Positions 42,234 through 54,198 of a stretch of 64,000 nucleotides of DNA are shown piece by piece; positions within the stretch are counted from its first letter, which is position 1, and each line of letters begins with the position of its first letter. The notes below the pieces were generated by a model. That model did not search any database. It was not told where the DNA came from and worked only from the letters and a program-made list of their open reading frames with translations. The position numbers and the translations under genes were made by a program. Source of the stretch: Pseudoflavonifractor sp. An44 (lineage in GTDB: Bacteria > Bacillota > Clostridia > Oscillospirales > Oscillospiraceae); NCBI RefSeq assembly GCF_002161675.1, contig NZ_NFIH01000001.1:124001-188000 (forward strand), in the 5' to 3' direction.

Positions 42234-42680
42234 TTCTTTCCCCCCTTTCCATTCATATTAGGTCTCTTGACCCACCGAAACGCAAAGAACATTTCTTTGC
42301 GCTTCGGTAGGTGCATTTCATTCGGCCACGCCCCCAAAATGCACAAAAGGAAATCAACAGGCGCTCGGCTGCTACCGAACTCATAGGCTCATCACCTCTG
42401 CCGGGTCCTCCGCCAGCTCCGTAGAGAAGTATCATAATGCCCTGTGCTTGTCATCGCCACCACCGGAGGCAATCCGGCTTCCCTCCGCTTCGGTTTCATC
42501 GCTCGTGTCTTTCGACCGTTTTGGCGCACCGGCGGACCAGGCTGGAAGATTCCTTCCACACAGGGAACGTACCTGTTGAATGTGTCTTCAATTTTCAAGG
42601 TACATGAGGGCCTTTTGCCCTTCACTTACCTACCGCACGGTTTGACTTACAAAACGAAAGCTAAACGCAGAAAATTTTTG
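42234..42680 (-). other. gene-free structured leader of parA
   Basis: No convincing gene. It holds a 16-bp inverted repeat with one mismatch (42,274-42,308, ACCGAAACGCAAAGAA and partner), a candidate operator or parS-like site. Open frames on both strands here have no ribosome sites and unusual composition. Confidence 0.5.
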
Positions 42681-51729: not shown

Positions 51730-51774
51730 AAAAAACCTCTTGGACAGCAGCTGCTGTCCAAGAGGTTTTTTTCT
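51726..51774. terminator. bidirectional terminator between dapB and tyrS
   Basis: 17-bp perfect stem (51,734-51,767) flanked by A8 and T7 tracts, so it serves both convergent genes. Confidence 0.95.
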
Positions 51775-53003
51775 TATTCGGCAATCTTCACGCAGTGGAA
51801 TACTTTCTTGCCCTTCTTGATGATGGCACCGTCGGCGCCGCAGTCCTGGCAGCAGAACTGGGCATTGACGTCGGTGACCTTGGCGTCGTTGACGGACACG
51901 CCGCCCTGCTGCACCAGACGGCGGGCCTCACCCTTGGAGGGGCACAGGCCGCACTTGACCAGCAGGTCCAGAAGGCCGATCTTGCCCTCGCAGAAGTCGT
52001 CCTGGCACAGGGTGGTGGTGGGCATGCTGGAGCGGTCCCCGCCGCCGGCAAACAGGGCCTTGGCAGCGGCCTGGGCCTTCTCTGCCTCCTCCTTGCCGTG
52101 GACCAGGGCGGTAAGCTCGTAGGCCAGAATCTCCTTGGCACGGTTCAACTGGCTGCCCTCCCATTGGTCCATCTCATCGATCTGCTCCAGAGGCAGGAAG
52201 GTGAGCATACGGATGCACTTGAGCACGTCGGCATCCTCCACATTGCGCCAGTACTGGTAGAAGTCGTAGGGGCTGGTCTTGTTGGGGTCCAGCCACACGG
52301 CACCCGCGGCAGTCTTGCCCATCTTCTTGCCCTCGCTGTTGAGCAGCAGGGTGATGGTCATGGCGTGGGCGTCCTGGCCCAGCTTGCGGCGGATGAGCTC
52401 AGTGCCGCCCAGCATGTTGGACCACTGGTCGTTGCCGCCAAACTGCATGTTGCAGTTGTAGTGCTGGAACAGGTAGTAGAAGTCGTAGGACTGCATGATC
52501 ATGTAGTTGAACTCCAGGAAGCTCAGGCCCTTCTCCATGCGCTGCTTGTAGCACTCGGCCCGGAGCATGTTGTTCACCGAGAAGCAGGCGCCCACTTCCC
52601 GCAGCAGCTCCACATAGTTGAGGTTCATCAGCCAGTCGGCGTTGTTGACCATCATGGCCTTGCCCGCGCCGAACTCAATGAACCGCTCCATCTGCTTTTT
52701 GAAGCAGTCGCAGTTGTGCTGGATGGTCTCGGGGGTCATCATGGTGCGCATGTCGCTGCGGCCGGAGGGGTCGCCCACCATGCCGGTGCCGCCGCCAATG
52801 AGGGCGATGGGGCGGTTGCCCGCCATCTGCAGCCGCTTCATGAGACACAGGGCCATGAAGTGGCCCACGTGGAGGGAGTCGGCGGTGGGGTCAAAGCCGA
52901 TGTAGAAGGTGGCTTTGCCGTTGTCGATCATCTCTCGAATTTCTTCCTCGTTGGTGACCTGGGCGATGAGGCCACGGGCCACCAGTTCATCGTACAATTT
53001 CAT
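51774..53003 (-). CDS. tyrS: tyrosyl-tRNA synthetase
   Basis: 409 residues. Class I signatures HVGHF (about 45, HIGH type) and KMGKT (about 230, KMSKS type), QFGGNDQW substrate loop and a C-terminal S4 RNA-binding domain ([18 protein letters not shown]). ATG at 53,003 follows AAGGAG. It is transcribed behind the EamA gene and a tyrosine T-box. Confidence 0.97.
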
Positions 53004-53019: not shown

Positions 53020-53889
53020 TTATGATTTTGCCGCCACGGCCTGGGCCGCATCGGCTTTGGTCTTCCACACATTATACCCAACCACGCCGCCAATGACGAT
53101 CACCGCACCCACCAGGGACACGGGACCGATGGTCTCGTGGTAAATGAGGGCCACCAGAATGGGGTTTAAAATGGGCTCGATGCCCGACACCAAGCTGGCC
53201 GTCACCGCCGAGGTGCGGGCCAGGCCCAGGGTGAGCAGGATATAGGCCAAGGCCACCTGGAACACACCCAGCACCACCAGACTCAACAGAGTCACCGAGC
53301 TAACCCTTGTCTCCCCCATCAGCCAGGGCAACCCAATGAGGGCGCTGCCCACATTGCCCCAGAACACTGAGGAGATGGGGTCGGAGTCCGGCATATCCTG
53401 GAGGAGAAACACGCCCGCATAGCTGAACCCGGACAGCAGGGCCACCACGTTGCCCCCCATGCCCCCTGCCTGGAGGCTGTCCACGAAAAAGCACAGCACC
53501 CCCAGCACCACCACACCGCAGGCCACCAGCTCGCCCTTCCGGGGCATCTTCCGCCACACCAGGGCGGTGAGCAGCAGCACGAAGATGGGGGCAGTAAATT
53601 GCAGCACAATGGCGTTGGCCGCCGTGGTCATCTTGTTGGCCAAGGTAAACAGGGTGTTGGTGCCGCAGATGGCCACAGCACCCAGCCCGATCCAGGGATT
53701 GAACCGGGGCCGATGTCCCACCCGCCACAGGTAGAGGCCGATGACCACCAGGGCGATGAGATTGCGCCCGCTGTTGATGGACATGCCGCTCCAGGGGATC
53801 ACCTTGATACACACCCCACCCAAGCTGTACAGGATGGCCGCCAGAAATACCAGCACCACACCACTGCGTTCTTCCTTTTCTTTTGACAA
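53020..53889 (-). CDS. EamA/DMT-family transporter in the tyrosine T-box operon
   Basis: About 280 residues, ten membrane helices in two EamA repeats (about 12-140 and 150-275), the drug/metabolite transporter fold. The longest frame starts at TTG 53,889, which lies in the T tract of the T-box terminator; GTG at 53,859 with AAGGAAG upstream is a better start. It lies between a Tyr T-box and tyrS, so tyrosine or another aromatic compound is a plausible substrate, which is inference from regulation only. Confidence 0.9.
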
Positions 53890-54163
53890 AAAAACACCCC
53901 CTGTCCCGTAGGACAGAGGGCGTGAAACAACGCGGTACCACCTCTGTTTGCCGCTTCCTCACGAAAGTCGGCCTCAGGGAGTTTCCTTCAAACTCCAACG
54001 CGCAATATCGGGCGCACCCGTCCGTTCCTACTTGCAGCCCCAAGGGGGCCGTTTCAGAAGGCTGCTCCAAGGTGTATTCCCTCCCCGACGCTCTCTTCCT
54101 TGCACCCACCGGAAGCTCTCTGGGCAGCGGTCTGGGGAGATACTTCTCCTCTTCTCTGCATTG
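53888..54163 (-). promoter_or_regulatory. tyrosine-specific T-box leader
   Basis: On the minus strand the antiterminator box TGGTACCGCG (53,931-53,942) is followed by the terminator (stem 53,897-53,919, T run). Upstream, stem I holds an AGAGAG and a GGTGGGTGCAAGG-type loop, and the specifier position reads GAATACACC with TAC (54,074-54,076), a tyrosine codon. Uncharged tRNA-Tyr would switch on the EamA gene and tyrS. Confidence 0.92.
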
Positions 54164-54169
54164 TCACTG

Positions 54170-54198
54170 ATGATAGCACAGTTGTCTGTGCTTGTCAA
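54170..54198 (-). promoter_or_regulatory. promoter of the T-box operon
   Basis: Minus strand TTGACA, 17-base spacer, TATCAT, immediately before the T-box leader. It overlaps the last bases of the HAD phosphatase gene; a GCACAG/CTGTGC repeat lies in the spacer. Confidence 0.85.

Follow-up and report, generated by a model that had tools for sequence, protein, structure and literature searches.

A permease gene that lies between a tyrosine-sensing leader RNA and the gene for a tyrosyl-tRNA synthetase raises the question of how far its regulation reveals what it transports. Such a locus, with a gene for an EamA-type permease (henceforth EamA) followed by tyrS, is found on the minus strand of a stretch of 64,000 nucleotides from Pseudoflavonifractor sp. 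An44 (contig NZ_NFIH01000001.1, positions 124,001 to 188,000; henceforth the window). The original prediction for this DNA, made from the letters alone, held that a T-box with a tyrosine specifier and its own promoter precedes EamA and then tyrS, and that the permease should consequently move tyrosine or an aromatic precursor. We favor, at a probability of about 70%, a tyrosine-tRNA-starvation operon composed of one promoter, a tyrosine T-box, a terminator, EamA and tyrS; this figure covers the operon and its regulation, not the substrate.

The regulatory part of the prediction was borne out by a covariance-model search, in which the leader matched the T-box family RF00230 over the full length of the model and above its gathering score of 93 bits, and by the reading of TAC in the specifier loop (Table 1). 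The promoter, the T-box and the two genes were also found in the order and at the coordinates that had been proposed, with 16 nucleotides between EamA and tyrS. By the pattern used, the genome holds a single tRNA-Tyr, with the anticodon GTA and an A before CCA. Both contacts of the T-box therefore fit the host tRNA, the specifier TAC matching the anticodon and the UGGU bulge, which conforms to UGGN, matching the ACCA end. The leader promoter is kept in L013-L018 as TTGACA...GTGCTATCATCA. Because the EamA start codon sits in the U-run of the terminator, there is no space for a separate EamA promoter, and this possibility was excluded by position. Thus, neither of the two findings that had been named as counting against the prediction, a specifier for another amino acid or a promoter that makes EamA independent, came to light. 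A candidate weak promoter inside the 3' end of EamA could, judging from its sequence, allow T-box-independent transcription of tyrS to some extent; its TATAAT is kept in six of seven genus-level sequences and reads TACAAT in L014. Over the stretch scanned, promoter-like sites numbered 2 against 0.8 expected from shuffles, and terminator-like sites 5 against 2.9.

Comparison of the leaders and following genes for all 12 T-box matches in the genome revealed that the window leader is the only one preceding tyrS. The remaining leaders stand before genes that, as read from their proteins, are valS, glyS, leuA, an acetolactate synthase gene, ileS, a substrate-binding ABC gene, a MetQ-like gene, pheS, thrS, cysE-cysS and alaS. 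The leader ahead of the substrate-binding ABC-type gene (L007, G000:C1:231461-231708) has an apparent TGG specifier, and this gene probably represents a tryptophan uptake system.

The arrangement is conserved well beyond the window. We scanned a species-genome collection for EamA relatives, kept the best 80 loci of the 188 relatives found, and built a tree of 103 different proteins from these loci and from family genomes. Close homologs, at least about 56% identical to the window protein, group together in a single clade of 56 rows (support 100/97). In 51 of these rows the T-box immediately precedes EamA, in two (L019 and L020) it lies between EamA and tyrS, and in three (L030, L037 and L044) it is absent; tyrS follows in nearly all clade loci whose contig reaches far enough. 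The T-box label changes five times on the tree, compared with a mean of about 35 after shuffling. All 53 different leaders carry the specifier TAC, which was read with regular expressions in 49 and directly in the remaining four. Beyond the clade, at about 29-55% identity, homologs lack both an upstream T-box and a neighboring tyrS, and the same holds for eight further homologs from other families of the order. No T-box upstream of these unlinked homologs was detected by profile, regular expression or Rfam model (by profile and regular expression only for L091, L092 and L104-L122), and their neighbors, readable in 27 of 31 loci with four lacking a clean open reading frame call, share no common metabolic theme. 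These sequences are most simply read as one gain of the arrangement within the family, followed by a few losses. We also observed the order EamA, T-box, Zn-ribbon gene, tyrS at L019:5876-6489 and L020:2478-3092. One T-box downstream of an unlinked EamA homolog (L103:2428-2664, 85.7 bits, specifier apparently ATC) was assigned to another operon; it precedes a gene whose start looks XRE/cupin-like and an AMP-binding-ligase-like sequence, both named from their sequence.

Table 1. Features of the EamA-tyrS locus, in window coordinates
Feature	Position	Strand	Details
Leader promoter, TTGACA-17-TATCAT with TG ahead of the -10	54170..54198	-	11/12 matches
T-box leader RNA, RF00230	53913..54165	-	covariance model, 105.1 bits, E 3.7e-22, full model 1-219
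Specifier codon TAC (tyrosine)	54074..54076	-	context GGGAATACACC in specifier loop
T-box bulge UGGU, complementary to the tRNA-Tyr acceptor end ACCA	53937..53940	-	GGTGGTACC in 53/53 leaders
Intrinsic terminator hairpin, 13 pairs, then U-run	53894..53923	-	
EamA Shine-Dalgarno sequence AGGGGGTG, within the terminator 3' arm	53895..53902	-	
EamA/DMT permease of 289 aa, starting with TTG in the terminator U-run	53020..53889	-	PF00892 E 5.9e-33, two stretches
Possible weak internal tyrS promoter, TCGTCA-17-TATAAT, inside the EamA 3' end	53071..53099	-	candidate
tyrS, tyrosyl-tRNA synthetase	51774..53003	-	TIGR00234 407.8 bits

A further question, which the original prediction did not raise, is how the leader acts on EamA itself, since the best start codon of the gene is the TTG in the U-run, 4 nucleotides past the terminator hairpin. 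With the Shine-Dalgarno sequence in the 3' arm of the hairpin and the start in the U-run, formation of the terminator should block EamA translation. In structure predictions the Shine-Dalgarno sequence has an unpaired probability of 0.00 in the free fold and a mean of 0.27-0.65 with the antiterminator imposed, in all seven genus-level leaders, and the overlap of terminator and start is kept in the same seven. In the portion of Barrick and Breaker 2007 available to us (PMC2258182), platforms that control both transcription and translation are marked by a distance of no more than 10 nucleotides from hairpin to start, and the window leader, with its short spacing and its Shine-Dalgarno sequence in the 3' arm, matches this pattern. 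Such spacing occurs in 17 of 49 EamA leaders versus 0 of 19 leaders directly preceding tyrS; the first count derives from 51 entered leaders minus L064, for which no hairpin was called, and L033, which lacked a start, the second from 22 minus L149 and L174, where the core was not matched, and L146, which again had no hairpin called. These models predict that the terminator should hold EamA under stricter control than tyrS, and that transcripts reading through in the terminator state would serve tyrS, not EamA. If instead EamA started at the in-frame GTG that exists 30 nucleotides past the TTG, the dual platform would be unreal and the leader would act on transcription alone. We consider this quite unlikely, since Shine-Dalgarno pairing for the window gene is -10.7 kcal/mol at the U-run TTG versus -3.3 kcal/mol at the next in-frame start, the overlap is kept throughout the genus-level leaders, and L015 has an ATG near the position of the TTG.

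Based on the established T-box mechanism, the operon that we favor would work as follows. Uncharged tRNA-Tyr would bind the UAC specifier through its GUA anticodon and the UGGU bulge through its ACCA end; by stabilizing the antiterminator, this pairing would allow RNA polymerase to continue into EamA and tyrS. With charged tRNA-Tyr, the terminator would stay formed. In this genus the terminator fold would also shut off EamA translation on read-through transcripts, and tyrS would retain a free ribosome site of its own. The role for EamA that comes out ahead is to take up tyrosine, or a related aromatic amino acid, when tyrosine runs short, although we hold it tentatively and place it level with a passenger role (see below). 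A stronger version of the model seems rather unlikely to us: here one T-box would produce two response strengths, with leaky read-through always feeding tyrS and EamA made only under the antiterminator, and EamA would be the first amino-acid importer of the DMT type known to be under T-box control, silent until tyrosine fails.

Several observations weigh against the operon model that we favor. In L019 and L020, EamA stands downstream of recN and upstream of the leader, and therefore seems to have departed from tyrosine control. The L044 gene is freestanding behind a TATAAT-type sequence without a T-box, and the EamA-tyrS locus of L037 (L037:600-700) has a promoter and a terminator with the T-box body and core missing, which may reflect a deletion or an assembly fault. 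Among the sequences compared, contigs of metagenome origin may be misassembled. The dual platform is missing in 32 of the 49 EamA leaders, a downstream start is about equally plausible in L051, L052, L054 and L060, and the dual platform as such could be chance compaction. As for the substrate, all ten genomes with the EamA operon in a sample of 120 carry tyrA and pheA, judged by matches to PF02153 and PF00800 (found in 99 and 100 of the 120, respectively); there is consequently no tie to tyrosine auxotrophy, and this link was dropped. Some DMT-type permeases are exporters, and it would make no sense to export tyrosine when tyrosine is short. Moreover, the slot between T-box and tyrS is, from the sequences compared, permissive, since varied unrelated genes occupy it in relatives.

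Genes between a T-box and a synthetase gene are often unrelated cargo, and any assignment of a substrate from T-box position therefore needs a count of the other occupants of the slot. We took 60 tyrS upstream regions (L123-L182) from the 106 genomes of the family in which tyrS was matched, going down the ranking rather than at random, in a sample that omits G000, G066, G045 and G014, all with the EamA operon. A T-box was detected at 42 of the 60 tyrS genes; since the profile was trained on EamA leaders, it may have overlooked T-boxes at some of the other 18. The leader lies directly before tyrS in 22 of the 42, with EamA in between in 5 and other genes in between in 13, a number that excludes two unclear cases (L131, with a spurious-looking open reading frame only, and L181, with a gap of 185 nucleotides and no open reading frame). 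The other cargo encodes Zn-ribbon proteins, proteins with a metallo-beta-lactamase fold, redox proteins of the C_GCAxxG_C_C type, a RibD-like and a NUDIX protein, and an M28 peptidase; in L132, L139, L140, L162, L169, L172 and L173 it was named by eye from its resemblance to scanned proteins. None of these genes points to tyrosine. As unrelated genes outnumber EamA in the slot (13 versus 5 of 42), position alone says little about substrate. The original interpretation thus survives in part: the tyrosine-specific control of the operon is conserved, whereas the substrate assignment drawn from it is weak in view of the unrelated genes that the slot holds. The metallo-beta-lactamase fold and C_GCAxxG_C_C recur jointly in L124, L140 (fused) and L172.

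The protein belongs to the EamA/DMT superfamily by its PF00892 repeats and by the DMT structures that head a fold search. A model built from 55 sequences (mean predicted local distance difference test score, pLDDT, of 90.6) matched the solved structure 5i20 best (Z 28.6 over 277 residues, 14% identity), which we take to be the Starkeya YddG amino-acid exporter and which a sequence profile recovers weakly (E 0.029); the choline importer LicB shares the same DMT fold (Z 25.3, 16% identity). The NCBIfam model for the YddG aromatic amino-acid exporter (NF050091) gave 19.4 bits, far below its cut-off of 300, and the TIGR00950 model for carboxylate/amino acid/amine transporters gave 76.5 bits against a cut-off of 230.2. 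The modeled fold settles the superfamily, and neither the substrate nor the direction of transport, because the nearest solved folds include both an exporter and an importer.

What, then, could EamA do for the cell? Import of tyrosine, or of tyrosine and phenylalanine, with the permease raised together with the synthetase to restore charged tRNA-Tyr, was the original proposal. It is consistent with a leader that is tyrosine-specific in every case read and lies directly upstream of EamA in most of the clade, with the additional translational gate on EamA and not on tyrS, with the tyrosine T-box transporters known elsewhere (NhaC and NSS, in the accessible sections of PMC2494555), and with a window genome that has no match to PF03553 (NhaC-type). 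It fits less well with the unrelated cargo of the slot, the missing link to auxotrophy and the low score for the YddG family. PF03553 matches also speak against it, as they occur in 71 of the 120 genomes, among them four of the ten with the EamA operon (G014, G039, G077 and G087). Since these four hold both, EamA and the NhaC-type transporters are not simple replacements for one another, and mutual replacement was dropped as an explanation.

We give the same tentative standing to a passenger role, in which a permease for an unrelated substrate settled once in the permissive T-box-tyrS slot and stayed. Other genes without an evident tyrosine link in 13 of the 42 sampled leaders argue for it, together with the extra genes that follow EamA in some loci (a cupin gene in L123, a GNAT acetyltransferase gene in L027), the distant homologs that lack both an upstream T-box and a nearby tyrS, and the freestanding gene of L044. 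Yet a single gain, long retention over many genera and the recurring tight overlap of terminator and start suggest that T-box control of EamA matters. The least probable of the roles weighed is export of a substance detrimental to tyrosine charging, for instance surplus phenylalanine or an analogue of tyrosine, which would be of benefit while tRNA-Tyr is uncharged. Exporters are numerous among DMT members, the presumed YddG structure heads the fold matches, and, judging from tyrA and pheA, the genomes with the EamA operon synthesize aromatic amino acids themselves; the importer LicB is close behind in the same search, however, the fold gives no direction, and no particular compound is indicated. 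For the operon that we favor, uptake and a passenger role thus stand side by side.

Several known systems share parts of this design. The tyrosine T-box-tyrS operons of Firmicutes have the same leader class, the TAC specifier and tyrS in the operon; unlike them, this locus has a DMT-type permease between leader and tyrS, with a start codon that overlaps the terminator. For the following comparisons we cite the papers from the sections available to us. Wels et al. 2008 (PMC2494555) describe seven families of transporters controlled by T-boxes, NhaC and NSS being those for tyrosine; these two are likewise transporters under a tyrosine T-box, but EamA/DMT lies outside the seven families listed there, and here the operon is shared with tyrS. 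The dual platforms of metabolite riboswitches (PMC2258182) have the same short spacing from hairpin to start, whereas here a T-box does the sensing and the gating falls on just the first gene of a pair. A review (PMC7583486) handles transcriptional and translational T-boxes as two classes. With the translational ones, mostly from Actinobacteria, the present leader shares the exposure of the Shine-Dalgarno sequence upon binding of uncharged tRNA, as predicted here; unlike them it retains a terminator with a U-run, and transcription should therefore be controlled as well. TBDB holds 23,535 T-boxes with their downstream genes (PMC7778990), so leaders of the EamA kind may be listed there individually, and the accessible part of PMC3766115, which classes T-box regulons, does not mention the EamA case. 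Searches of an open-licence library gave no paper on the pairing of EamA with a T-box; an earlier mention in Vitreschak 2008 or Gutierrez-Preciado 2009 is possible.

Elsewhere in the window, a match to the Rfam pemK RNA (RF02913, 51.2 bits) lies on the minus strand at 42381-42438, about 150 nucleotides upstream of an open reading frame (42233-41406, minus strand) whose sequence suggests a ParA/Soj-like ATPase.

For the Oscillospiraceae common in the gut, the EamA gene of this operon provides a conserved and testable candidate for a permease that responds to tyrosine. Its dual platform suggests that one T-box can set unequal strictness for two genes of the same operon.
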